A DNA stretch of 64,000 bases from Pseudeuparius sepicola (taxonomy: Eukaryota > Arthropoda > Insecta > Coleoptera > Anthribidae). The stretch lies in NCBI GenBank assembly GCA_963920635.1, contig OY987307.1, positions 16,755,735 to 16,819,734 of the forward strand, written 5' to 3'. Both the position numbers and the translations under genes were made by a program. This document shows positions 3,221-56,612 of the stretch, in pieces (positions within the stretch are counted from its first letter, which is position 1; each line of letters starts with the position of its first letter). A model generated the notes under the pieces. That model was not told where the DNA came from and ran no database searches. It saw only the letters and a program-made list of their open reading frames with translations.

Positions 3221-4250
3221 TTGTCACTCAGTGCTGGGCAAGTTTGGTTTTATTTTAAACATTTTATGATGCATAGACATCATTTGAAACGTGTAACGAT
3301 GTTAAGTACTATTGGCATGTTGGAGGTTGGAATTTCACAAAGTGATGTCTCAGAAACTCTTAACACATCCACGAGTGTTATTAATCGTTTATGGATAAGA
3401 TTCCAAGAAACAGGAGACGTCAGAGGTGACTACCCCAATTCAGAATAGATTTCTAAGATGGCTAGCCTTGCGTGAGCGCAGTATCACTGCTTCGCAATTG
3501 GTTATTCAGCTGCACAATACACACAATGTACGGGTTAGTGACCAAACTGACCGAATCAGGTTCCACGAAGATCACGTTAATGACCGCCGGCCTGTAAGAG
3601 TTCCAGCACTATCACAAGGAAATCGCACAGTTTACAGTGGGCACAAGAACATTTAAATTGGCACCAGCAGGAATGGACTCCAATTTTCTTTTCTGGTGAG
3701 CCCCGATTTGGACTTCGGCCAGATTCAAGGAGGCATCGCGTGTGGAGTTGTCCTGGAAATGCAGAACGCCTTACAGCTGTTCGAGCGGTTCAGGAGGTAC
3801 GATGGGGCGATATCAACATCGGCGGAAGAACTAATCTCGTTTGGTTGGAGCGGTACCTGAATTCCAATGATTATCAAAACATTGTTCTTCGGCCTATTGT
3901 TGTTCCATATGCTGAGAGAATTGGACCAAAATTTCAAGTAATGAACGACAATGCTCGTCTTCATGCGACAAGTGTCGTACGCGAATTTCTGCAGGACAAT
4001 GAAATTAATGTTTTGCCTTGGCCTTCTCAATCCTCTGACTTTAATCTCATCTAGCACTTAAGAGATATGCTCGGACGAAGACTTTTGGTGCAAAAAATTG
4101 TGTTTTACACGGATCAACAACTATTCTAGTGCCTTTCAAATGAATGGAACGCCATCGATCAACATGATATTGACAACCTAATTCTTATATTCGTAGATGT
4201 AGAGCAGTTGTTAACAGTCGTGGTGGTAATCCTCTATCATTTAATGTTGC
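3221..4250 (+). pseudogene. Tc1-like transposase relic
   Basis: Degenerate Tc1/mariner-superfamily transposase (a DDE recombinase that cuts and pastes its own element). In order: a paired-type helix-turn-helix near 3280-3420 (ISQSDVSETLNTSTSVINRL), a frameshift, a second HTH-like segment at 3440-3600, then the catalytic core. The first catalytic Asp is lost (FSGEPRF where FTDESRF is usual). The second is kept in MNDNARLHA. The third acidic residue is now a stop codon in the block WPSQSSDFNLI-stop-HLRD, normally DLNPIEHLW. Later stops follow. No terminal repeats could be recognised at the edges, so this is an old, dead copy. Confidence 0.85.
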
Positions 4251-7170: not shown

Positions 7171-8268
7171 TTAGGTAAGTGAAATTAACCAATTTCGTAA
7201 AACGTGTTCAAAGTGGGAACCGTTTTGTTGAACACAAACCCGCAGACGTTTTACAAAATTTTGACGTATTTTCCAATGAATGTTGGGTATCTGTTTAATA
7301 TCTTCAGCCGCGGCAAGGATTCGTTGTTGTAAGTGATCGCGATTTCTAATTGGCACGGCATAGACGCGATCCTTCATGGCCCCCCAGAAAGAAAAGTCCA
7401 TAGCGTTTAAGTCCGGAGAACGGGGAGGCCATGCTGCGTTGGGGGAATTGTTACCAATCCAACGTCTTGGATAATTTTCATTCAGCCATTCGGTTACGAT
7501 CCGCCCTCGGTGTGGTGGGGCACCATCATGCATAAACCATAAACTCTGTCTAATATCGAGGGGAATATCTTCCATAAGAATTGGTAGTTCATGTTCCAAA
7601 AGATACCGGTAAGTTTCAGCATTTAACCGAGGGGGCAAGAAATGTGGACCAATGATGTAATCTCCGACGATTCCAGCCCAGCAATTGACTGAACATCTAT
7701 CTTGCGAACGAGTCTGCCTTACGACGTGTGGATTTACCATGGCCCAGTAATGAAGGTTGTGTAGATTCAGTACACCATCTTTTGTAAAACAGGCCTCATC
7801 AGTAAAGAGCAATCGGTTTACAAAATCCGGATTTTGGTTATAACGTTGAAGAGCCCATAAGCAGAAATTTCTTCTTCGTGGTAAATCCTCTGGTTTAAGT
7901 TCCTGTACTTTTTGAACACTAAAAGGATGCAGTAATTGCAGTTTAATAAAACTGTGGACTTGCATTTTAGGAATTCCAAGTTGCAGTGATGCCCGTCTTA
8001 TGCTTATTTCGGGGTTTTCGTCAAATAAATCCAAAATATTTTCTTCTTGTTGCACTGTTAACAAACGACGTCTTCCTGCATTAGATTTTGTTACATTTAC
8101 AGAACCCGTTTCCATAAGTTGCCGGTGCACACGTGAAAACATTGAATGATATGGAAGTATTCGTTGGGGAAATCGGTCAGAGCACAGTCTCCGCGCGAGA
8201 CGTGAATTTCCACGGGCCTCTCCATACATCAGGTGCATTTGAACCTTTTCTTGCATGGATAATATCAC
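7171..8268 (-). CDS. Mariner-like transposase, D-D-D type, intact
   Basis: 365 residues, no stop or shift. It catalyses excision and TA-targeted insertion of the surrounding element. The N-terminal 120 residues form helix-turn-helix DNA-binding domains (start EKVQMHLMYGEARGNSRLA, of the kind annotated DUF4817 in insects). The RNase-H-like core follows: first Asp in LLFTDEACF, second in WFMHDGAPPH, then PRSPDLNAMDFSFWG, where the third Asp falls about 42 residues after the second. That spacing is longer than classic mariner (D34D) and nearest to DD41D groups. The length is normal for the family. The gene lies between two 520-bp terminal repeats, which should contain its promoter and binding sites. 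The start at 8268 is the first Met; the Met four codons on is an alternative. Confidence 0.93.
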   Translation of the reverse strand: MILSMQEKVQMHLMYGEARGNSRLARRLCSDRFPQRILPYHSMFSRVHRQLMETGSVNVTKSNAGRRRLLTVQQEENILDLFDENPEISIRRASLQLGIPKMQVHSFIKLQLLHPFSVQKVQELKPEDLPRRRNFCLWALQRYNQNPDFVNRLLFTDEACFTKDGVLNLHNLHYWAMVNPHVVRQTRSQDRCSVNCWAGIVGDYIIGPHFLPPRLNAETYRYLLEHELPILMEDIPLDIRQSLWFMHDGAPPHRGRIVTEWLNENYPRRWIGNNSPNAAWPPRSPDLNAMDFSFWGAMKDRVYAVPIRNRDHLQQRILAAAEDIKQIPNIHWKIRQNFVKRLRVCVQQNGSHFEHVLRNWLISLT

Positions 8269-8934
8269 CGTTTTTCGAGAAAAAAGTAGAAAAGATAATC
8301 TAACAACAACAAATTAATTAAACTGTCAAAAAATAAATGTGTTTGTTTATTGCGAACGCCAGGCACCTATGATTAACGCCTAGAATTTAATTGCATACGA
8401 GTGTCGATATGCACCTGCATCGATGCAGAAATTTGAAAATTTCTCGAAAACGGTCACCTTTGGCGTTATGCACCAAGTATACCTTTTTTGCTTAGAAAAC
8501 GTGTGGGAAGAGGATACTTTCACAAAATGTTGTAAAAGTTTACTGTCAAAAAAGTTAGGGCAAATTAAATTAAATAATGATAGCGTACGCAGCGCCCTCT
8601 ACGTATTGCACCAAAAATAATACCAAATTATGATTTCTCATCCCAAAAAAACCCCGACTACCAAATTTTGCACGAAAATTTTGTCGTCTCAAAAAGTTAT
8701 TTAAAAAAATCGAAAATAAAATTTAAATTTCAACACCCTGCATCTCGAAAACCAAACATCTGCGGACCCATGTTCATATGAACTTTTCGTCATATTTTCC
8801 ATTTTTCTTTTTAATTTTTCAAGTTGGTGCATTTATTTCCGGACACCCTGTATACTTTTAAAAAATTTAAATTTTCAGACTTAGCTTACATTGTCATTTA
8901 TGGATTTTCCACCATTATATTTATTAAACAAAAT

Positions 8935-9225
8935 GAATATTTAGTGTCCCCATTATAATTTTAAAAGAAATGGCTTGTGGCATATGGGACAAAATGCTTT
9001 CGTAATTGGCAACACCAAACTAGTTTCCAATATCTAATGGAAATTGTGTATGGGTCCTTCGGAGGTGTGCAGACCACGACAGGTACCTGTTTCGGGCTTG
9101 TTGGCCCTCATCAGGCAGACGCAGCGCACCTCAACCGAAAAGACCCAGACACGTTCGCTAAGTGGAAAAGGAACTAGTATAATGCGGTGAGCATTTACCA
9201 TCCAACGCCATCTAGCTTATTTTAA
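8935..9225 (-). repeat. Hammerhead-bearing repeat, single arm
   Basis: Closely similar to the left arm of the palindromic element at 36201-37642. The match runs from AAATGGCTYGTGGCATATGG (8970) to CCATCCAACGCCATCTAGCT (9219). The first 30 bp match 36170-36200 and then skip about 400 bp of the larger copy, so this is an internally deleted version. It contains a hammerhead motif (9062-9132). Confidence 0.8.
9062..9132 (-). ncRNA. Hammerhead ribozyme, type I
   Basis: Self-cleaving RNA motif on the minus strand. It has core CTGATGA (9108-9114 complement), stem II GGGC / GCCC with loop CAACAA, then GAAA, stem III as the 12-nt palindrome ACAGGTACCTGT, and cleavage triplet GTC. Stem I is formed by CTGC against GTGG next to the core and by GAGGTG against CACCTC at the outer end (9127-9132 and 9062-9067). 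All conserved core bases are present. Very short or palindromic stem III is typical of hammerheads in Penelope-like elements and animal retrozymes, which probably act as dimers. Confidence 0.85.
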
Positions 9226-24819: not shown

Positions 24820-24834
24820 TGGTTCAAATTAATT

Positions 24835-26488
24835 AATAATAATTAATAATGTTTATTCCCAACGAAAATCGAGAATCAATGGTGTAGTCCAATGCCGGAA
24901 GGGGTATTAGCCCTCGGAGTAGTTGTTTCTGTTGGTTCTATCTTTTGAATCCATCTGCACTCCGGATTTTGCCTACGTCCATCTGATGATTCCCAAAGAG
25001 GATGAAACCGGTAATGGGCTGGCTGGGATCATTGTGCCTGCAGCATGTCAGGACATGTCCCAACAAAGATAGCAGTATCTTTGACGTTACGTTGGTAAAG
25101 GAGAAAACTTTGATCTATGCAATGTTTATTCCCAACGAAAATCGAGAATCAATGGTGTAGTTCAATGCCGGTAGGGGTATTAGCCCTCGGAGTAGTTGTT
25201 TCTGTTGGTTCTATCTTTTGAATCCATCTGCACTCCGGATTTTGCCTACGTCCATCTGATGATTCCCAAAGAGGATGAAACCGGTAATGGGCTGGCTGGG
25301 ATCATTGTGCCTGCAGCATGTCAGGACATGTCCCAACAAAGATAGCAGTATCTTTGACGTTACGTTGGTAAAGGAGAAAACTTTGATCTATGCAATGTTT
25401 ATTCCCAACGAAAATCGAGAATCAATGGTGTAGTTCAATGCCGGTAGGGGTATTAGCCCTCGGAGTAGTTGTTTCTGTTGGTTCTATCTTTTGAATCCAT
25501 CTGCACTCCGGATTTTGCCTACGTCCATCTGATGATTCCCAAAGAGGATGAAACCGGTAATGGGCTGGCTGGGATCATTGTGCCTGCAGCATGTCAGGAC
25601 ATGTCCCAACAAAGATAGCAGTATCTTTGACGTTACGTTGATAAAGGAGAAAACTTTGATCTATGCAATGTTTATTCCCAACGAAAATCGAGAATCAATG
25701 GTGTAGTCCAATGCCGGTAGGGGTATTAGCCCTCGGAGTAGTTGTTTCTGTTGGTTCTATCTTTTGAATCCATCTGCACTCCGGATTTTGCCTACGTCCA
25801 TCTGATGATTCCCAAAGAGGATGAAACCGGTAATGGGCTGGCTGGGATCATTGTGCCTGCAGCATGTCAGGACATGTCCCAACAAAGATAGCAGTATCTT
25901 TGACGTTACGTTGGTAAAGGAGAAAACTTTGATCTATGCAATGTTTATTCCCAACGAAAATCGAGAATCAATGGTGTAGTTCAATGCCGGTAGGGGTATT
26001 AGCCCTCGGAGTAGTTGTTTCTGTTGGTTCTATCTTTTGAATCCATCTGCACTCCGGATTTTGCCTACGTCCATCTGATGATTCCCAAATAGGATGAAGC
26101 CGGTAATGGGCTGGCTGGGATCATTGTGCCTGCAGCATGTCAGGACATGTCCCAACAAAGATAGCAGTATCTTTGACGTTACGTTGGTAAAGGAGAAAAC
26201 TTTGATCTATGCAATGTTTATTCCCAACGAAAATCGAGAATCAATGGTGTAGTTCAATGCCGGTAGGGGTATTAGCCCTCGGAGTAGTTGTTTCTGTTGG
26301 TTCTATCTTTTGAATCCATCTGCACTCCGGATTTTGCCTACGTCCATCTGATGATTCCCAAATAGGATGAAACCGGTAATGGGCTGGCTGGGATCATTGT
26401 GCCTGCAGCATGTCAGGACATGTCCCAACAAAGATAGCAGTATCTTTGACGTTACGTTGGTAAAGGAGAAAACTTTGATCTATGCAAT
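24835..26488 (+). mobile_element. Retrozyme-like element: six 273-bp units, each with a hammerhead
   Basis: Six head-to-tail copies of a 273-bp unit (starts 24851, 25124, 25397, 25670, 25943, 26216; array ends 26488, exactly 6.0 units). Copies differ by only a few bases. The block is preceded by a 16-bp AAT-rich stretch (24835-24850) and bounded by the 14-bp direct repeat GGTTCAAATTAATT (24821-24834 and 26489-26502), so the whole array behaves as a single insertion. Each unit has a type I hammerhead on the plus strand. There is no coding potential. Known animal retrozymes have this form: short hammerhead-bearing units in tandem, flanked by target duplications, moved in trans. Confidence 0.85.
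24961..25040 (+). ncRNA. Hammerhead ribozyme, type I (unit 1; repeated every 273 bp)
   Basis: Core CTGATGA at 24983-24989 and GAAA at 25004-25007. Stem I is GTCCAT (24977-24982) against ATGGGC (25014-25019), six pairs including one G-U, continued by GCC/GGC and GAT/ATC across internal loops. Stem III is the 6-nt palindrome ACCGGT. The cleavage triplet is GTA, predicted cut after 25013. Stem II is weaker: TCC/GGA closed by a U-U mismatch. Equivalent cut sites follow at 25286, 25559, 25832, 26105 and 26378. Unit 5 has GAAG instead of GAAA. GTA and the mismatch may slow cleavage compared with a GTC hammerhead. Confidence 0.75.
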
Positions 26489-26727
26489 GGTTCAAATTAA
26501 TTTACAACTTAACTGTGGGCAAAAAAGTTCTGAGCATAATAAATGAAACTGGTTGGCACAAGTGTCGGTGCGGATACTGCACTATAACATAATTATCTAT
26601 GAACGTGTGCAAAAGATCATTAAAATTAGGGCGTTCGAACCGGCGCCGCACCGTAGTATTCCATTACACGACTATTAAATATCGTCGGCGTTTAGTCTCT
26701 AAATAATAATTTAAAAAACTTTTAATA

Positions 26728-27092
26728 ATGAGGTGTGCTGTATCCGGATGTAATGTGGATAACGAAGGCAAAAACTTCGATAAAAATATAAGGTTTTTTA
26801 CTTTTCCCAAAGACAAAAAAGTGTGTAATGAATGGGTTCACTTGTGTATTCGTAAGGATACATATTTAATACAACTTCTGCACGTATTTGCTCAAAACAT
26901 TTTGAGAAAGATGATTATGTAAGTAATCTGTAACACGAACTACTTGGATATTTATTATATATTTAGAGCTTTAAAAAATGAAGCAGTGCCTTCCAAAAAT
27001 TTATCAATGCCAAAAAAGAAGCAAAATACAGCAAGAGATTTTCGTTATGAAAAAAGGAATAGAATACAACTTCTGGAAGAAATTTGCATTGG
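26728..27092 (+). pseudogene. THAP-domain gene relic
   Basis: THAP zinc-finger N-terminus: MRCAVSGCNVDNE gives two Cys, then RFFTFPKDK and NEWVHLC. The last part of the finger is in a shifted frame, where ICSKHFEKDDY supplies the third Cys, the His and the canonical HF. A GTAAGT donor follows at 26919. A second exon from about 26967 reads LKNEAVPSKNLS, the AVPS block that follows many THAP domains, and ends near a GTATGT at 27093. One frameshift near 26870 disables it. Such domains are found in P-type transposases and in host genes derived from them. No catalytic domain is seen nearby. Confidence 0.7.
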
Positions 27093-36200: not shown

Positions 36201-36702
36201 TTTTAAACATCCTGATGAGATTATGAGAGAAACATATGGCAAATTTCAGATTTATTTCAGTTTCTCTTCACCTGATCATATTTGAAATAGAAAATTGTTA
36301 TGTTACTACCAATAATATGTCAATCTGGAAGGAATCAATAATGTCATAAGATTTTTATTTCAATATTAAAACAAATTAAGTCCAGATCCTTCTCAGTTAG
36401 CAACTTATGGTATTGGAGGTTCTAGGTGTCGCATTCTTGCAAATTGTTAAATAACTCGCTTTCTTGTCTGTCTGTCTGTCTGTTTGTTTGTTTGTCACCC
36501 TTTCTTCTTAACGCGTTTATAACACGTTATTTTTAATTATTACCAGCTTATGGCATGTGCTTATCTGTTCCTAAGTTTCCACTAGTCAAATATTTTTATT
36601 TTTAAAAGAAATGGCTCGTGGCATATGGGACAAAATGCTTTGGTAATTGGCAACACCAAACTAGTTTCCAATATCTAATGGAAATTATGTATGGGTCTTT
36701 TG

Positions 36703-36773
36703 GAGGTGTCCAGACCACGACAGGTACCTGTTTCGGGCTTGTTGGCCCTCATCAGGCAGACGTAGCGCACCTC
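36703..36773 (-). ncRNA. Hammerhead ribozyme, type I (left arm)
   Basis: Same core as at 9062-9132: CTGATGA, GGGC/GCCC stem II, GAAA, palindromic ACAGGTACCTGT, GTC. The outer stem I pairs GAGGTG with CACCTC. Confidence 0.85.
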
Positions 36774-37137
36774 ACCGAAAAACCCAGATTTCGTTGGCTA
36801 TGTGGAATAGGAAATAGTATAATGCGGTGAGCATTTACCATCCAACGCCATCTAGCTGGTACTGCCAAAACCAAAGCAATGTGAGTGTGTATATACCGAC
36901 CGGTCGATCGACATATAAAAAGAACTCTTGGCTCCCCGTATGTATGCTTCTTCTGGTTTTTCCACCGTGCCCCGCCGCTTTGCAGAGTTCTTTTTATATG
37001 TCGATCGACCGGTCGATATATACACACTCACATTGCTTTGGTTTTGGCAGTACCAGCTAAATGGCGTTGGATGGTAATGCTCACCGCATTATACTATTTC
37101 CTATTCCACTTAGCCAACGTATCTGGGTCTTTCGGTT

Positions 37138-37208
37138 GAGGTGCGCTACGTCTGCCTGATGAGGGCCAACAAGCCCGAAACAGGTACCTGTCGTGGTCTG
37201 CACACCTC
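37138..37208 (+). ncRNA. Hammerhead ribozyme, type I (right arm)
   Basis: CTGATGA at 37156-37162, GGGC/GCCC stem II with loop CAACAA, GAAA at 37177-37180, stem III palindrome to 37191, GTC ending at 37192 (predicted cut after it). Stem I is CTGC/GTGG next to the core, then GAGGTG (37138-37143) with CACCTC (37203-37208). Confidence 0.88.
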
Positions 37209-37671
37209 CGAAACACCCATACATAATTTACATTAGATATTGGAAACTAGTTTGGTGTTGCCAATTACCAAAGCATTTTGTCCCATATGCCACGAGCCAT
37301 TTCTTTTAAAAATAAAAATATTTGACTAGTGGAAACTTAGGAACAGATAAGCACATGCCATAAGCTGGTAATAATTAAAAATAACGTGTTATAAACGCGT
37401 TAAGAAGAAAGGGTGACAAACAAACAGACAGACAGACAACAAAGGGAGTTATTTAACAATTTGCAAGAATGCGACACCTAGAACCTCCGATACCATAAGT
37501 TGGTAACTGAGAAGGTTCTGGACTTAATTTGTTTTAATATTGAAATAAAAATCTTATGGCATTATTGATTCCTTCCAGATTGACATATTATTGGTAGAAA
37601 TTTGCCATATGTTTCTCTCATAATCTCGTCAAGATGTTTAAAATCGGTTGCAAAATTTCAAACACAAGACT

Positions 37672-39331: not shown

Positions 39332-41025
39332 TCTATACCTTTTCAACTTCAAATTGGGAATAATCAATTTCAAATTGGGAATAAACAACTTCAAATTGAG
39401 AATAGTCAACTTCAAATTGGGATTAATCAATTTCAAATTGGGAATAGACAACTTCAAATTGGGAATAGTCAATATCAAATTGAGAATAAACAATTTCAAA
39501 TCGGGAATATTCAATACTAAATTGAAAATCAACAACTTCATATTAAACAATATTTTAATTACTTATATCTAAATAAACACACAATATGTGCCTACTTATC
39601 GAATTTAAAATATCATATTTTTGCAATACAGTGTGGTCATTTAAGTGTGCAACATATGGGATTTTTTTTTATTAATTAGCACAACGAAAATACAAATACT
39701 CCCGAAAGTTGGTACATGTTGGATAATTATACTAGGCCAACTTAGAATGGTTGCAAGTCAAACAGCGTACAGGGTAGGTAAAAAAATACAAAAATTGTAC
39801 AAGAGTAAAGTACCCTTATTTCAGAAAATTTAGCAAAATGTTATTGAGAAAAGTTGTCTATATAGAATTAAAAGTTAAAAGCCTAAATACCGAAACATGG
39901 CGTCCTAAGAAGAAAAATTTTTTTTTTTTTGAAAAACATTCATAATTTTCTAAAAAAAATTGTCTTACTATTCACCCTAGATAATTTCATAAATCAATCA
40001 AAATTAAATCATTTTCGCATAACTTTGTTCAAATTCAAGCATATTTGTAAAATTTACTTAGATTTTTAATTTTTTAGGGAATCACAAACTTTGTTGCAAC
40101 GATATTAAACAAAACTTTAAAATTTCGCAAAAATTCTTCGGAACAAGGTAAAACATTAGTAATGATAATGTGCATATTAAAAAACCCTCATTTAAGATGC
40201 AAAATTTTGATTTTATTTGTTTATAAAGAAATTGGAAATTAATTATTGACGAAAAATTTTTTTCTTAGGTGGCTATGTTTTGGTATTTAGGCATAGCTTT
40301 TAATTCTAAACCACTTTTCTTAATAACCTTTTGCTTAATTTTTTGAAATAAGGGTACTTTACTCGTACAATTTTTATATTTTTTGACCTACCCTGTATGC
40401 TGTTTAACTTGCAACCTTTCTAAGTGCACCTAATATGATTATTGAACATGCATCAACTTTCGGCAATGTCTGTATTTTGGTTGTGCAATTAATAAAAAAA
40501 AGTCCCATATGTTGCACACTTATATTTTTTAATCCTTGTCAATCATTTAATATTTCTGGTATATATGTATCTCTGTATATTTCCGATAAATCTGGTGCAA
40601 CTCGCTACAGTTAATTTGTTATTTATGTTATTTTGCACTACTTATACTTTCTAATTTCTATAAGTTAACTTTAGTTTGCGATAAATGATTTGGTCTTTGT
40701 CTTCTTTCTAAGATTTCTGGCCTTTTTGAACCTTACCAGGCAGTCGAAATTTTGCTTAATATTATAAACTTTAGTTAACAAATTGAGTTTTTCTTGTTGA
40801 TAAGTGTTTTTATTTCATGAAGTTATTGATTTTCAATTTAATATTGAAATTCCCAATTTGAAATTGTTTATTCTCAATTTGATATTGACTATTCCCAATT
40901 TGAAGTTGTCTATTCCCAATTTGAAATTGATTAATCCCAATTGGAAGTTGACTATTCTCAATTTGAAGTTGTTTATTCCCAATTTGTAATTGATTATTCC
41001 CAATTTGAAGTTGAAAAGGTATAGT
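39332..41025. mobile_element. Foldback-type element with 21-bp repeats in its arms
   Basis: Arms 39332-39545 and 40813-41025 start CTATACCTTTTCAACTTC and are inverted copies. Each arm contains about nine tandem 21-bp units of the form CTTCAAATTGGGAATARTCAA with small variations. Because 21 is a multiple of three the arms are open in several frames, giving a false repeat peptide (NFKLGI-type heptads). Drosophila FB and Galileo elements have the same design. A second inverted-repeat element (39642-40522) lies in the middle. Confidence 0.85.
39642..40522. mobile_element. Nested inverted-repeat element
   Basis: Ends TAAGTGTGCAACATATGGGA and its complement. Arms of about 270-340 bp (39642-39980 and 40250-40522) share GTACAGGGTAGGTAAAAAA-type and AAAGTACCCTTATTTCA blocks. 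It sits inside the 21-bp-repeat foldback element. No ORF. Confidence 0.8.
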
Positions 41026-47090: not shown

Positions 47091-48247
47091 GAAAAAAGAT
47101 CGAAAATCAAAAGGTCGAATCACAATCGACCGAATCACAAAAACAAACAAAACAAAATATAGAAACTACAAAAGGTCGAATCACAAAAGGTCGAATCACA
47201 CAAGGTCGAATTACAAAAGGTCGAATCACAAAAAGGTCGAATTACAAAAAGTCGAATCGCAAAGGGTCGAATCGCAAAAGGTCGAATCACAAAAGGTCGA
47301 ATTACAAAATGTCAAAAAACAATAATTAGATATATTTTTTAGCGAGTAATCGAAAATTATGAGTCGCGGCAACACAAATATTGTGGATTGGCGAAAAAAA
47401 AGGTCGAAACACAAGAGGTCGAATCACAAAATATAAAAACTGCAAAAGACCGAATCACGAAAGGTGTCGAATCACAAACAGTCGAATTGACAAAAAATAA
47501 TTCTAATTTGTATCCAATAATTTGAAAATAATGATTGGCGGAAAAAAGTCGAAAATCCAAAGATAGAAACACAAAAGCAGGAAAAGCTTATTTTGTATAA
47601 ACGAAAAATGACTTCAGCTTAGGCCAGAAGTGAGCGTCACAGTTTTTTGAGACACCATGTATATTTTGCGGCAAAATATACAGGGTGTCTCAAAAAACTG
47701 TAACGCTCACTTTTGGCCTTTGATTTTTTTAGACACCCTGTATCTTTTGCGCAAAAGATAAGGGTGTCTCAAAAAAATCATAGGCCAAAAGTGAGCGTCA
47801 CAGTTTGTGCCAAAGATACAGGGTGTCTCAAAAAAATCTTAGGCCCAAAGTAAGCGTCACAGTTTTTGAATCACCCTGTATATTTTTCCGCGAAATAGAC
47901 ACAGGGTGTTTAAAAAAATGTGACGTTCACTTCTGGCCTAAGCTGAAGTCAGTAATTGGTACCTACTGACAATAATAATTTTCGTTTATAAATAAGACGC
48001 CTTTGGCATCGGCGTACCTAGCTGCAGTTTGTCTTTTTGGGCTCAAAATGTAGGTCCTTTCAATTATTGAAGACCAATTATCACATATCGAGTTTTAAAA
48101 TTTCCACCTTTTGTGATTCGACCTTTTGTGTTTCGACTTTTTGTGATTCTATCTTTTGTTTTTCGATCTTTTGATTATTCTACCTTTTCTGTTTTCGAGA
48201 TTTTTTAAAATTTCGACCTTTGTTTTTCGACCTTTTTTCCGCCAATC
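47091..48247. mobile_element. Foldback-type element with AGGTCGAATCACA repeats
   Basis: Outer ends GGTTGGCGGAAAAAAG and its complement CTTTTTTCCGCCAATC. The left arm (47091-47590) consists of tandem units of about 15 bp, AAAAGGTCGAATCAC, interrupted by two further GGCGGAAAAAA starts (47389, 47535). The right arm (48105-48247) holds the inverse units GTGATTCGACCTTTT. The centre is a palindromic cluster (47594-47990). Open frames with K-V-E-S-Q heptad-like repeats are by-products of the 15-bp period. Confidence 0.8.
47594..47990. repeat. Palindromic cluster of TACAGGGTGTC units
   Basis: Outer arms GACTTCAGCTTAGGCCAGAA and its inverse bound five or six alternating units, each reading ACACCCTGTATcTTTTGCG or the reverse GATACAGGGTGTCTCAAAAA next to GTGAGCGTCACAG. 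Units of 60-65 bp alternate in direction, giving palindromes within a palindrome. Confidence 0.75.
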
Positions 48248-52461: not shown

Positions 52462-53336
52462 TCAAGTTATATGACCTTCATCTATCTGTTCATGGTACGG
52501 AGACAACCTGACGATATTTACTATCTTCATCTTTGCTGTTGGGCTACGTCTTATACGATAAACGACATCATTAATCTTTTTCACGACGATGTATGGTCTT
52601 TCCCAACTTCTATCGAGTTTCGGAGACCGACCTTTTGTTCGCATGGGATTGTATAACCACACTTTGTCACCCACATTAAATTCAACAGATCGTAGCGGAT
52701 CTTCATCCTGTCACTTTCGAGATGCAACTTCTGGCGAACGTCTTCATGAACTAACTGGAGACGCTCTCTCAGGTGACTCAAGTAGTCATCAGTAGATTCT
52801 AGATTTTCTGGCCGGTCGGTTATGATGTCGATAGGGAGCCTTAGATTGTCTCCGAAAATAAGCTCGGCTGGAGACTTTCCCGTCGCTTCATGCACAGCGG
52901 AACGGTAGGACAATAGAAAAGGTGGTATGCATGTGTCCCAATTACTTTGTTTCTGATTCACTACCATCTTCAGGTATGTTTCTAATGTCTTATTGAACCA
53001 TTCCACCATACCATCAGACTGGGGGTGCAGGGGTGTTGTTCTTGTCTTGGAAATCCCTAGCAGGCGGGAGACATTTTGGAATACCTCCGACTCAAAATTG
53101 CGGCCCTGATCAGAGTGTAGTTCTCTTGGGACACCAAAACGACATATCCAATTTTGGAACAGGACCTCTGCGACTGTGGTGGCCTCTTGGTTGGGGATTG
53201 GATAAACTTCTGGCCATTTGCTGAAGTAGTCCATGACGACTAACACATAACGGTTGCCAGATTCGCTGGTTGGGAACGGTCCCGCTGCGTCAATGGCAAT
53301 CCTTTCAAAAAGAGCTCCGACCAGGTATTGCATCAT
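52462..53336 (-). pseudogene. Gypsy integrase, N-terminus deleted and shifted
   Basis: Catalytic core from about 53310: AIDAAGPFP (first Asp), LHSDQGRNFES (second Asp), and PQSDGMVEWFNKTLETYL (Glu). The HHCC zinc-binding domain that should lie between RNase H and this core is absent: the preceding frame goes from QVARWLQ straight into the core region, so about 100 or more codons are deleted. The C-terminal part, GDKVWLYNPMRTKGRSPKLD and YHEQIDEG, is in a second frame (52462-52674), after a shift near 52670. Confidence 0.9.
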
Positions 53337-53709
53337 TTTGAAGCCATCTTGCCACTTGTCCTTCTGGGTTCTTGAACTGGAATAGCCATTTTAGTGATGC
53401 GTGATCTGTTCTTAATATGAAAGGTTGGCCATATAAATACTTGTGGAAATGTTCAACGGCCTTGACCACTGCTAGCAGTTCCCTTCTTGTCACCCAGTGG
53501 TTTCTCTCTGGCTTAGACAGAGTTTTACTGAAGTAGGCAATAACTTTTTCTTGCCTTTCTTGCTCCTGGGATAGCACTGCCCCAACACCAAAGTTGCTGG
53601 TATCTGTATCCACGATGAATGTCTTTCCAGGAACGGGAAACGTTAAAATCGGTGAAGAAGGTCTGAAATGCTTCTTCACAATCTGAGGTCCACATATAAT
53701 CGATCCCAT
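53305..53709 (-). pseudogene. Gypsy RNase H domain
   Basis: Removes RNA from the RNA-DNA hybrid during reverse transcription. Motifs: VDTDTSNFGVGAVLSQ (first Asp), RRELLAVV (Glu), LRTDHASLKWL (Asp). It is in a different frame from the RT, the shift lying near 53650-53690, and ends in the deletion junction with integrase. Confidence 0.9.
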
Positions 53710-54565
53710 CCTCTGTGAGCCTATGCAGCGGCCTGGCTATGTGTGCAAAGTTTAGGACGAATCTCCTGTAATAAGGGCACAGGCCCAGGAAGCTCCTTAG
53801 TTCATGTTTATCTTTCGGTCGCGGCCATTTTTCAATTGTCTCTATCTTTTCTGGGTGCGTTTTAACTCCTTGCTCTGAAATTACATGCCCCAAATATCTA
53901 ACTTCCTTCTTAAAGAAACAGCATTTCTTTGGGCTTAGTTTTAGGTTAGCTTCTCGTAACTTCTGGAATACCTCTCGGACATTCTTCAAGTGATCTTCGA
54001 ATGTTCTTCCCGAAATAATGACATCATCCAGATATACTAGACAGGTTTTCCATGTCATACCTCTTAGCACAGACTCCATGAGCCTCCCAAAGGTTGCTGG
54101 TGCATTACAGGGGCCAAATGGCATAACATTAAATTGCCATAAACCTGTACCAGTAGAAAATGCAGTTTTCTCTTTATCTTGAGTGTGCATTTCGACTTGC
54201 CAGTACCCACTCTTCAAGTCCAACGTAGAAAACCATTTAGAACTAGATAGAGTGTCTAAAGTGTCATCCACTCTGGGTAGAGGGTAGCTGTCCTTCTTGG
54301 TGACGTCATTTAACCGTCGATAGTCTACGCAGAACCTCATAGAACCATTCTTCTTCTTCACTAGGACAACTGGAGAAGTCCATGGGCTCTGTGATGGTTC
54401 ATTGATTCTCTGTTGTTCCATTTCCTTCATCATAGCTGAGACCTCTTCTTGCTTAGCAAGGGGTATCCTTCGAGGAGCCTGTTTGATCGGAGGGCTATTA
54501 CCAGTATTTATCATGTGCTGTACCAAACCTGTCCTTCCAAAATCGCATTCAGACGTAGCAAACAC
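53600..54565 (-). pseudogene. Gypsy reverse transcriptase
   Basis: Full RT fingers-palm: SPWTSPVVLVKKKNGSMRFC, DYRRLND, FSTLDLKSGYWQV (first Asp), AFSTGTGLWQFNVMPFG, TCLVYLDDVII (catalytic YLDD) and LGHVISEQGV. The thumb continues to PLHRLTEDG. Intact across these motifs but out of frame with RNase H downstream. The linker to protease (54676-54873, GLYKKGIFPAKTLTTKRGRV) is in yet another frame. Confidence 0.93.
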
Positions 54566-54890
54566 ATCACGATTTTCTTCAATCAGTTTCGCAGTTGGTA
54601 CTGCTGATCCATTGTTAAGTAAGCAGCGGCTTCTTCGACCATATTCTTCAGACTCTCTGGTAGGGGCTGTGGAACTTACTGTGGTGCAACCTGATTTCTC
54701 ATAACTGCCTGAACCTCATGGCATAACCCAATCTTTTCGCCATTGCTCAAATTTTGATCATAGTTCTTTAGGTTAGCAATCCGCACAATTATTACACGCC
54801 CTCTTTTGGTGGTCAGCGTCTTTGCAGGAAATATACCTTTTTTATACAGTCCGCATTCTTCTTCGGGTTCCACAATAATTGTTTCGCCAT

Positions 54891-55300
54891 TCAGTCCATC
54901 GTAGGTGGCCTTGATAACCTTTTCTGAATTAGCCGAATGGTATCTTCATAAGTGGTCACAGTGCGGGTAGTGTTGCCAGCCATGTTAGGACGTGTCATCA
55001 GAATCTCTTCTGTCTTTGTCCTCAAAATCCTCTCGTGAACTTCTATCTTGAACCGCTGTTCACGCCTGACATCTAGTCCTAATATGACATCGTCGGTTAT
55101 TTCGGCCACAAGGACTCTGTGCTTAAACTTATTAGAGCCTATGGTTATAAAGGCGTAGTGCTCTCCTGTAACTGTAATTTCTTCACCATTTGCCAATTCG
55201 ACGATGTAGTTTGGTGGTGGTGCAATCCTGCAGTGGGCTATGATGTTCGGCCTCACGATGGTATGACTAGAACTAGTGTCCACCACAATCCCGGCCGCAG
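54891..55300 (-). pseudogene. Gypsy aspartic protease
   Basis: Retropepsin-like: VVDTSSSHTIVRP carries the active-site D-T-S, then VLVAEITDDVILGLDVRRE is the ILGLD flap-side block. DTS replaces the commoner DTG, as in many insect Gypsy elements. It matures Gag-Pol. In a frame separate from gag and RT in this copy. Confidence 0.8.
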
Positions 55301-56139
55301 ATCTTTCCTGGTACTACCAAGCTGTCTCCTGAATTCGGCAGCCGGTTAACTTTTATCCTAATAGGTGGGGCTTGGTAGCACCCAGCCAGCTTTCGCCCCT
55401 CCTGCTTCTCACCATCAACAGGTTTGGGGCACTGGCGTTTCAAATGCCCCTCAACTCCGCAGCTCCAACAGCGCAGTGGTGTACTTCTTCGAACACCCAT
55501 CCCATCTTTGGAGGTCGTAGCACGTGAAAGGATGTTTTGGATATCCCGTACCATTTGTTCTACGTTGGTATTACTGGTACTGCTTCTGTTTTGCGGTCGC
55601 ACCTGTCTTAACCTCACTTATCTACGTGCTGACTGCATGGCGGCTTCGAATTCAAAAGCATGTGCCAAGGCCTCTGAGATGTTTTTATGGCGGGCTAGCC
55701 GAAGCGCTTGGCTAGTCTCGCTGTCACGCACGCCATCTATGAAGCCGCTTACCGAAATTTGTTCCCGGAATTCGACTGGAGCCGATGGATAGGACAGATT
55801 TACCAGGCGGGCAATGTCGGCTTCAAATTGTTGCAGGGTCTCATCAGTGCGTTGTCGTCGACCTTTCAGTTGCGCCTGGTATACCTGTTGTAGATGTGCT
55901 TCCCCATATCGCATTTCAAGTGCTCTAACCAGGGAACTATAATCATGCTGAGCGTCGGCCGGTATCGTTCGCAACACTTCGGTGGCCTCACCTCGTAGAC
56001 ATAACTTCAAATTCCGAGCTTTTTCTTCTCCTGTCCAGAAGTTTCCTTCTGCAGCAGCCTCAAACTGGTTAAGGTAAGTGCTCCATGCCACTTTTCCATC
56101 AAACTTGGGAGGCTTCATTTTCATAGAGGATGTAGTCAT
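55273..56139 (-). pseudogene. Gypsy gag: capsid and zinc knuckle
   Basis: Capsid part 55618-56139: MKPPKFDGKVAWSTYLNQFE, ARNLKLCLRGEATEVLRTIP, LQQFEADIARLV, a typical retrotransposon Gag core. A stop-shift at about 55617 separates it from the nucleocapsid part with CWSCGVEGHLKRQC (CCHC zinc knuckle, about 55460). It forms the particle and binds RNA. The segment after the knuckle runs into the protease. Confidence 0.88.
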
Positions 56140-56147
56140 GCCTGCTT

Positions 56148-56612
56148 CTAATTTTGATACACCCTGTAGTGGTACATCCTCGCCTCCAGCTGTTCCATTC
56201 TTCCTTCACTGTTGTCAAATCTCGTTTTTATTCTGTCCAGTTCGGTTTGTACTTCCATCTTAATTTCCGTCTTCATTTGGGCAATTTCTTCTTCAACAAC
56301 TTCTTCAAAGTTGGAAATTTTCTTCTGTAATTCTATTTGAATCTCTTCTAATTTCATGTTGGTTTCATCTCGTCCAGTTTTAATCTCTACTTTAAGGTCG
56401 CCCATCAGTTTTTCTTGTTTCGTGTCCCTATCCTCTTCCCTCTTGCGCCTTTCTTCTTCTTTTTCTTCTTCCCTCTTGCGCCTTTCTTCTTCTTTTTCTT
56501 CGTGTTTATTTTCTCTTTCTTCATATTTCTTGTCCATTTCGTCATATTTCTTCATAAACATTTCCATCAACTTTTCCATTTCCATTGCGGTCTGTTTTCT
56601 GGTTGTGGGCAT
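56148..56612 (-). pseudogene. Gypsy gag N-terminus: charged coiled coil
   Basis: 154 codons from MPTTRKQTAMEME. Residues 20-70 are a Lys/Glu/Arg coiled coil with an exact-looking EEERRKREEEK duplication, residues 70-145 a second helix. A one-base shift near 56170 separates it from the capsid: the other frame continues PLQGVSKLEAG straight into MTTSSMKM, so both were one Gag. Charged coiled-coil leaders are common in insect Gypsy Gags. Plus-strand frames rich in Phe/Ser here are antisense artefacts. Confidence 0.8.

Follow-up and report, generated by a model that had tools for sequence, protein, structure and literature searches.

Six copies of a 273-bp unit, each carrying a hammerhead-like motif, lie head to tail in the 64,000-nucleotide stretch of Pseudeuparius sepicola DNA analysed here (the window), and they raise the question of what kind of element they represent and how six units came to occupy one site. 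A first-pass annotation had read the locus as a retrozyme-like insertion with a target duplication. This reading is well supported by the anatomy of the locus together with published descriptions of metazoan retrozymes, and we conclude that the locus is probably one insertion of a retrozyme of the metazoan (non-LTR) type, a new example consisting of six 273-bp units between 15-bp repeats; retrozymes are mobile elements proposed to move by way of small RNA circles. The units, the repeats, the ribozyme motif and the junctions can be read directly from the DNA and are described first.

Organisation of the array and its flanks

The insertion has the following parts.

24820–24834, no strand: left 15-bp target-site duplication TGGTTCAAATTAATT, a perfect match to the right copy
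24835–24847, no strand: 13-base A/T filler between duplication and array, overlapping the 10-bp tandem duplication of TAATTAATAA
24848–25120, + strand: unit 1, with variants 42C and 52A
25121–25393, + strand: unit 2, identical to the consensus
25394–25666, + strand: unit 3, with variant 248A
25667–25939, + strand: unit 4, with variant 42C
25940–26212, + strand: unit 5, with variants 151T and 160G, the latter being the first base of helix III
26213–26485, + strand: unit 6, with variant 151T
26486–26487, + strand: AA, the beginning of a seventh unit (AAT or AATG if junction bases common to the target are counted)
26488–26502, no strand: right copy of the target-site duplication TGGTTCAAATTAATT, a perfect match to the left copy

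The head-to-tail array spans 24848–26485, and its six units start at positions 24848, 25121, 25394, 25667, 25940 and 26213, all 273 bases apart. TRF gives 6.0 copies with 99% matches, and units 1 to 6 depart from the consensus at 2, 0, 1, 1, 2 and 1 positions, respectively, so that the exact 273-bp period claimed in the first-pass annotation is confirmed with zero to two differences per unit. The accompanying statement that there are exactly six units is correct for the array but not for the insert as a whole, which also takes in 13 bases of A/T filler at its left edge and AA(T) at its right edge; the distance between the direct repeats is 1653–1654 bases, or 6 × 273 plus 15–16.

The direct repeats had been described as 14 bp in length. 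They are indeed perfect in both flanks, but inclusion of the T in front of them brings their length to 15 bp. When pairs of positions with this spacing were placed at random 20,000 times outside the array, the longest word common to a pair was 12 bases, and none of the placements reached 14. An earlier run in which the array was included gave one match of 15 bases in 5,000 draws, which may be the real site itself, and one of at least 14 bases in 2,000 A/T-rich draws. Joined without the insert, the flanks form one plain site. At the left edge, positions 24830–24849 consist of the 10-bp tandem duplication TAATTAATAA TAATTAATAA. As the filler lies inside this duplication, the original junction between target and array may have contained only three extra bases (AAT). 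No further copy of the 273-bp unit was found elsewhere in the 64-kb window.

The hammerhead motif

The motif and its parts are located in unit 1 as follows.

24971–25023, + strand: predicted type I hammerhead, recurring every 273 bases in units 2–6; the outer stem I is GCC/GGC, with a UAC bulge
24977–24982 and 25014–25019, + strand: stem I
24983, + strand: CTGATGA core

The order of elements in each unit is GCC-UAC-GUCCAU, CUGAUGA, UUCC-CAAA(G/U)A-GGAU, GAA, ACCGGU, A and AUGGGC-U-GGC. Judged by its sequence, the motif would be a hammerhead of type I, with helix I as its open end and a predicted cleavage site after unit position 166; as a predicted site, the position after 25013 proposed earlier for unit 1 is right. 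Stem I (GTCCAT/ATGGGC) and CTGATGA are present in six of the six units, as had been reported. GAAA, which had likewise been assigned to each unit, is found in five of them, the exception being unit 5, where the sequence is GAAG and a G·U could stand in place of the A-U. The base of helix II is a U·U. Within one unit, helix III consists of a single A-U pair with a CCGG cap, and ACCGGU is self-complementary, the palindrome reading GCCGGU in unit 5. The stem III recorded as a palindromic ACCGGT is accordingly palindromic, but it is not a self-closing helix, pairing within the unit being limited to the A-U.

A strict hammerhead descriptor run on both strands of the window retrieved the six motifs of the array and no others; on 200 shuffles, it gave 0.04 hits per 64-kb strand, with any hit in 8 of the 200. 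Comparison with a covariance model had been proposed as a check, and the Rfam model Hammerhead_HH9 does match all six units, though at scores of 24.0–27.3 bits (E-values of 0.00036–0.0042) that are all below the gathering score of 52 bits. The Rfam scan of the whole window returned no family above gathering score. Folding of an 81-nt stretch around the hammerhead shows no advantage over shuffled sequence (z of +1.01; 176 of 200 shuffles at least as good).

Predicted dependence on two units

The ribozyme should need two units. Dimer dependence is predicted because the one-pair helix III with its palindromic CCGG, together with the U·U, resembles the ribozymes of the axolotl, among which HHR_Amex1 is described as having a one-pair helix III and a palindromic tetraloop and HHR_Amex2 as having a U·U at the base of helix II (PMC7229834). 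The helix III trait of dimeric (newt-type) hammerheads is present here, in that the helix is too short alone and is palindromic for the pairing of two copies. As reported in PMC7229834, axolotl repeats tested as monomers were 6% and 22% cleaved in one hour, and dimers were much more efficient. The same source gives lengths of 330–350 bp for the axolotl and newt repeats, from which the present element differs in its 273-bp unit, in having both features in one motif and in its arthropod host. It also differs from most invertebrate retrozymes, for which efficient self-cleavage is described (PMC7229834), in having a helix III like those of amphibians (axolotl).

By folding energies, which leave out tertiary contacts, two short cores in the dimeric form are predicted at −32.9 kcal/mol (best cofold, −34.7), and one core without helix III at −11.6 kcal/mol (best single fold, −14.3). 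The full two-unit transcript gives the opposite order: the dimeric form is predicted at −149.9 kcal/mol, and both the free fold (−160.9) and a pair of monomeric cores (−157.9) are predicted to be more stable.

Two other insect hammerheads invite comparison. The repeat-type hammerhead of Aedes aegypti also has a palindromic stem/loop III, proposed to serve in ribozyme–ribozyme pairing (Perreault 2011, PMC3088659). To go by its description there, it is set apart by a dimer stem III of 10 bp, as against 6 bp here (ACCGGU). Dolichopoda pDo500 is, like the present array, an insect tandem repeat with a hammerhead, and a double-hammerhead form has been proposed for it. As PMC2837043 describes that form, pairing between two sequences involves stems I and II, with stem III closed within one of them, whereas here stem III would form between units.

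A predicted blocking helix in the circle

One further segment of the unit emerges from folding of the 273-nt circle.

24885–24899, + strand: candidate blocking segment in unit 1 (unit positions 38–52), with predicted pairing to unit positions 160–174, recurring every 273 bases

In the minimum-energy circle, the stretch that comprises helix III, the 3′ strand of helix I and the cleavage point (unit positions 160–174) lies opposite positions 38–52, and in the consensus 14 of its 15 positions are paired, 10 of these pairs being Watson–Crick. The cleavage strand is thus predicted to be hidden by positions 38–52. The helix would have 13 pairs in unit 1 and 14 in the other five. Three of the variants fall within it: 42C (units 1 and 4) converts a U·G to C-G, 52A (unit 1) removes one pair and 160G (unit 5) changes an A-U to G·U. 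To open the ribozyme in the predicted circle would take 3.8 kcal/mol if helix III is left out and 11.8 kcal/mol if it is included.

Shuffling the rest of the unit produced at least 14 pairs in 21 of 5,000 cases, a frequency that refers to a helix spotted after the fold had been seen, and 10 of the 273 15-mers of the unit pair equally well somewhere. Metazoan retrozyme circles are described as stable and highly self-paired; here, the circle as a whole is predicted at −72.5 kcal/mol, an unexceptional value that 34 of 200 shuffles equal or undercut (z of −1.06), with pairing of 64% compared with 62% in shuffles. Self-blocked ribozymes are described in PMC7229834 for plant retrozymes and viroids and not for most metazoan circles, some mussel circles being exceptional. 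In having a ribozyme predicted to be hidden in the circle, the element is like the plant retrozymes and unlike most metazoan ones (PMC7229834).

Origin of the six units

Two of the variants recur, 42C being common to units 1 and 4 and 151T to units 5 and 6; 52A, 160G and 248A are single. In a simulation of seven independent changes, with transitions favoured and equal sites assumed, two or more coincidences arose with P of 0.00024 and one or more with P of 0.032. The variants common to two units therefore make it unlikely that a single circle was copied six times, with independent mutation afterwards. Any one of four processes would explain them: the template may have been switched between three or more RNA haplotypes, the RNA template may itself have been multimeric, a DNA circle may have been the source, or units may have exchanged sequence once in place. 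An assembly error behind them is possible as well. We rejected a trimeric circle copied twice (1 = 4, 2 = 5 and 3 = 6) on the grounds that 151T is common to units 5 and 6.

The array ends at unit position 1–4, and the cleavage point is at 166/167; the ends are thus far from the point at which a linear hammerhead monomer with fixed ends would have been cut, and such a monomer was discarded as the template. The whole-number copy count had been offered as a clue to the mechanism of insertion, but it proves to be a weak one. By simple arithmetic, start and end would coincide within 3–4 bases on a 273-base circle in about 3% of cases by chance, and this rises to about 1 in 7 if junctions can fall only at AAT, a word that occurs seven times in the unit, giving a range of 3–14%. 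A DNA circle, moreover, yields whole numbers too, and we do not take the count as proof of any mechanism.

Such a DNA circle deserves consideration in its own right. If an extrachromosomal circle of six units, derived from a satellite array, had been cut open at a single point and had entered a staggered break without reverse transcription, the single opening would give a whole number of units at any phase, the circle would carry pre-existing variants common to units and the ends of the array at unit position 1–4 would have no relation to the cleavage point at 166. However, retroelements typically leave a clean duplication such as this 15-bp one when they insert, and no source array is seen in the window. 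The length of the duplication is, in addition, exactly that of the 15-bp target-site duplications described for Nematostella retrozyme repeats (PMC4918200). Overall, we consider an origin from a DNA circle quite unlikely and retain the retrozyme insertion as the preferred reading.

Promoter-like boxes and the satellite alternative

The array contains a weak pair of boxes resembling an internal Pol III promoter.

25093–25103, + strand: weak Pol III-like A box in unit 1 (speculative)
25160–25168, + strand: weak Pol III-like B box in unit 2, 67 apart from the A box (speculative)

The A-box-like sequence, TGGTAAAGGAG, lies at unit positions 246–256 and the B-box-like sequence, GTTCAATGC, at positions 40–48 of the next unit, and four intact A/B box pairs are present in the array. 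They suggest an alternative in which the locus is a SINE-like Pol III element, its internal promoter driving the array and the hammerhead being an added processing signal. Among 20,000 shuffles, 0.3% contain such a box pair on the same strand and 0.5% when both strands are considered; 678 other 273-bp windows, read on both strands, contain none. The A-box/B-box consensus used for the scan is nevertheless loose, and the boxes were found after five kinds of motif had been tried. Further, the A box is broken by 248A in unit 3 and the B box by 42C in units 1 and 4, while TTTT at unit positions 96 and 120 could stop transcripts ahead of the hammerhead. Retrozymes in general seem to be promoterless, according to a review (PMC7761336). 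We regard the Pol III element as an improbable explanation of the locus as a whole.

Hammerhead satellites have long been known from newts, schistosomes and cave crickets. An ordinary satellite, that is, a local array formed by unequal exchange with a chance hammerhead and an incidental flanking repeat, would agree with the description of the Dolichopoda pDo500 hammerhead repeat as satellite DNA (PMC2837043) and with variants common to units, which fit unit exchange, but it is highly improbable here, given that a perfect 15-bp repeat stands precisely at each edge (a match that none of 20,000 random placements attained), that the flanks join into one simple site and that TRF over the 64 kb finds no second array of the 273-bp unit.

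Relation to known retrozymes and Penelope-like elements

We place the element among the metazoan non-LTR retrozymes because its size, tandem order, G+C content and repeat length fit those published. Six tandem units of 273 bp compare with units of about 150–450 bp, in dimers to large multimers, in the published class; the G+C content of the unit is 44.3% (class limit, below 45–50%), the target-site duplication is 15 bp (class trait, more than 4 bp) and coding capacity is absent, a reading through tandem units giving stop-free frames of at most 58 codons. The class is further characterised by the lack of LTRs, PBS and PPT, by many dispersed genomic copies and by expression as linear and circular RNA. 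The metazoan retrozymes described by Cervera and de la Pena (2020, PMC7229834) similarly have few-hundred-bp tandem units with one type I hammerhead each, low G+C content, no coding capacity and target-site duplications of more than 4 bp, and their RNAs are given there as about 170–400 nt. That account also reports retrozyme-like repeats from insects and crustaceans and proposes Penelope-like elements, which carry hammerheads themselves, as the mobilisers (PMC7229834).

Two other assignments were rejected. A plant LTR retrozyme would have a 4-bp target-site duplication, LTRs, a type III hammerhead and a circle of about 700 bp, as against the 15-bp duplication, type I motif and 273-bp unit found here. 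The locus is likewise not a Penelope-like element itself: the 273-bp unit holds no reverse transcriptase or GIY-YIG coding sequence, and the motif scan of the window found no telomerase-like reverse transcriptase with a GIY-YIG endonuclease. In six frames, the reverse transcriptase motifs in the window comprise a gypsy-like YLDD and none that is Penelope-like; the same scan also picked up two words resembling YXDD, in frames that are short or interrupted by stops, and, at about 61087 on the + strand, a single GIY-like word, which we take to be due to chance. The hammerheads of Penelope-like elements are described as usually minimal and without helix III (PMC6155905, PMC7761336), and rotifer Penelope target-site duplications, given as 8–10 bp or none, are shorter than that seen here (PMC3846280).

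Among openly licensed papers, none devoted to an insect retrozyme was found. Insects are named in one sentence of the available text of PMC7229834, the Aedes hammerhead is treated in that of PMC3088659 and the word 'retrozyme' was not found in that of PMC8490949.

A second hammerhead family and neighbouring features

A relaxed descriptor identified CTGATGAGGGCCAACAAGCCCGAAAC followed by AGGTACCTGTC at 37156 (+ strand), 36755 (− strand) and 9114 (− strand), the succession of the two forming the palindrome ACAGGTACCTGT. A fourth place, at 7307 (− strand), looks like chance. The three motifs belong to the following repeats.

36201–37643: gapped inverted repeat with arms 36201–36928 and 36984–37643, with about 96% identity over their aligned parts and a hammerhead-like motif in each arm (36755, − strand; 37156, + strand)
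8953–9217: solo partial copy of the second family, with its hammerhead-like motif at 9114 (− strand)

Rfam Hammerhead_HH9 scores these motifs at 26.5–29.7 bits, which is sub-threshold, and their stem I has one U-U in six positions. In an alignment of the three copies over 267 columns, 31 columns vary or hold gaps, and none of these is among the 51 hammerhead columns; P for the invariant 51-column stretch, which was chosen after the fact, is 0.00094, and that for the longest invariant run is 0.024. No clear target duplication was found for the family, the longest common words being 8 bases for the inverted element and 5 for the solo copy, and the motif scan of the window found no Penelope-type reverse transcriptase for it. 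The family may be a Penelope-like or retrozyme-like remnant. The window thus shows hammerhead-like repeats of two families within the same 64 kb.

Exact-pattern scans of viral contigs gave no match to the 273-bp element and none to the second hammerhead family; phage records gave no match, and neither did a stricter exact-pattern scan of genome contigs, although the collections scanned are mainly of microbes and viruses, so that such misses say little about animals. A looser scan of the genome contigs returned three bacterial loci (L001, L002 and L003), on which Rfam found no family above gathering score. L001 and L002 were rejected as relatives, for their common stretch looks protein-coding and they are taken for chance matches. 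L003, at positions 4202–4226 of a Patescibacteria MAG contig, has the hammerhead-like core CTGATGAGTCCCAAAAAGGACGAAAG.

Other features of the window are listed here for completeness.

3584–4051, + strand: transposase-like ORF, DDE_3 at 33.4 bits, above the Pfam cut-off
7174–8313, − strand: transposase-like ORF, DDE_3 at 19.8 bits, below the cut-off of 28.6, with a DUF4817 helix-turn-helix above the Pfam cut-off; among 120 of 236 relatives listed, the few that carry an organism name are from Euwallacea, Diabrotica and Armadillidium, which points to an arthropod as the likely host
26728–26886, + strand: THAP domain, Pfam 34.6 bits, 225 bases past the right duplication
39343–39544 and 40834–41014: 21/63-bp repeat arrays whose units are mutual reverse complements
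47093–47429 and 48101–48237: 15/30-bp repeats (ACAAAAGGTCGAATC and TTCGACCTTTTGTGA), reverse complements of each other
52581–56612, − strand: gag/pol-like ORFs split into several frames, with a YLDD motif, resembling those of a gypsy-type LTR retrotransposon

Proposed mechanism and implications

From the structure of the retrozyme insertion, we infer a path through cleavage, circles, a borrowed enzyme and target priming. Transcripts of an array, arising by read-through or started internally, would be cut once per unit, after position 166. The cutting hammerheads would form mainly between two neighbouring units, because helix III of a single motif is one base pair. A host RNA ligase could then convert the 273-nt pieces into circles, in which the cleavage strand would be masked by unit positions 38–52. 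Copying of the circles into multimeric cDNA would fall to a reverse transcriptase borrowed from a Penelope-like or LINE element, and the cDNA might enter a staggered break in A/T-rich DNA to give the 15-bp duplication.

The bases at the edges of the duplication bear on the choice of enzyme. The L1-like target consensus is TT/AAAA, and a LINE-type (L1-like) target was set aside since the edge bases are unlike it, although this is not diagnostic. The top-strand break implied by the duplication follows ATT; the bottom-strand break is not at ATT. A Penelope-like enzyme, that of Anolis, has A/T-rich DNA as its target and ATT as its preferred site of cutting, and it begins copying inside the RNA (PMC11167929).

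A bolder version of this scheme, which is conceivable but unlikely, is that the element is an arthropod retrozyme that is doubly locked and possibly has its own Pol III promoter: it would be cut only as a multimer, since helix III would form only between two units; the cleavage strand of its circle would be hidden under positions 38–52; and the reverse transcriptase would have switched among three or more different circles, with one and the same AAT as its point of initiation and of termination. If it were doubly locked in this way, the finished 273-nt circle would be protected from reopening. The locus touches on two questions in the biology of retrozymes, namely, how a circle escapes from its own ribozyme and how it is converted into a tandem genomic array. 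As a clean insertion, with an intact duplication, readable junctions, a predicted dimer ribozyme and blocking helix, and variants common to its units, it makes both of these questions testable.
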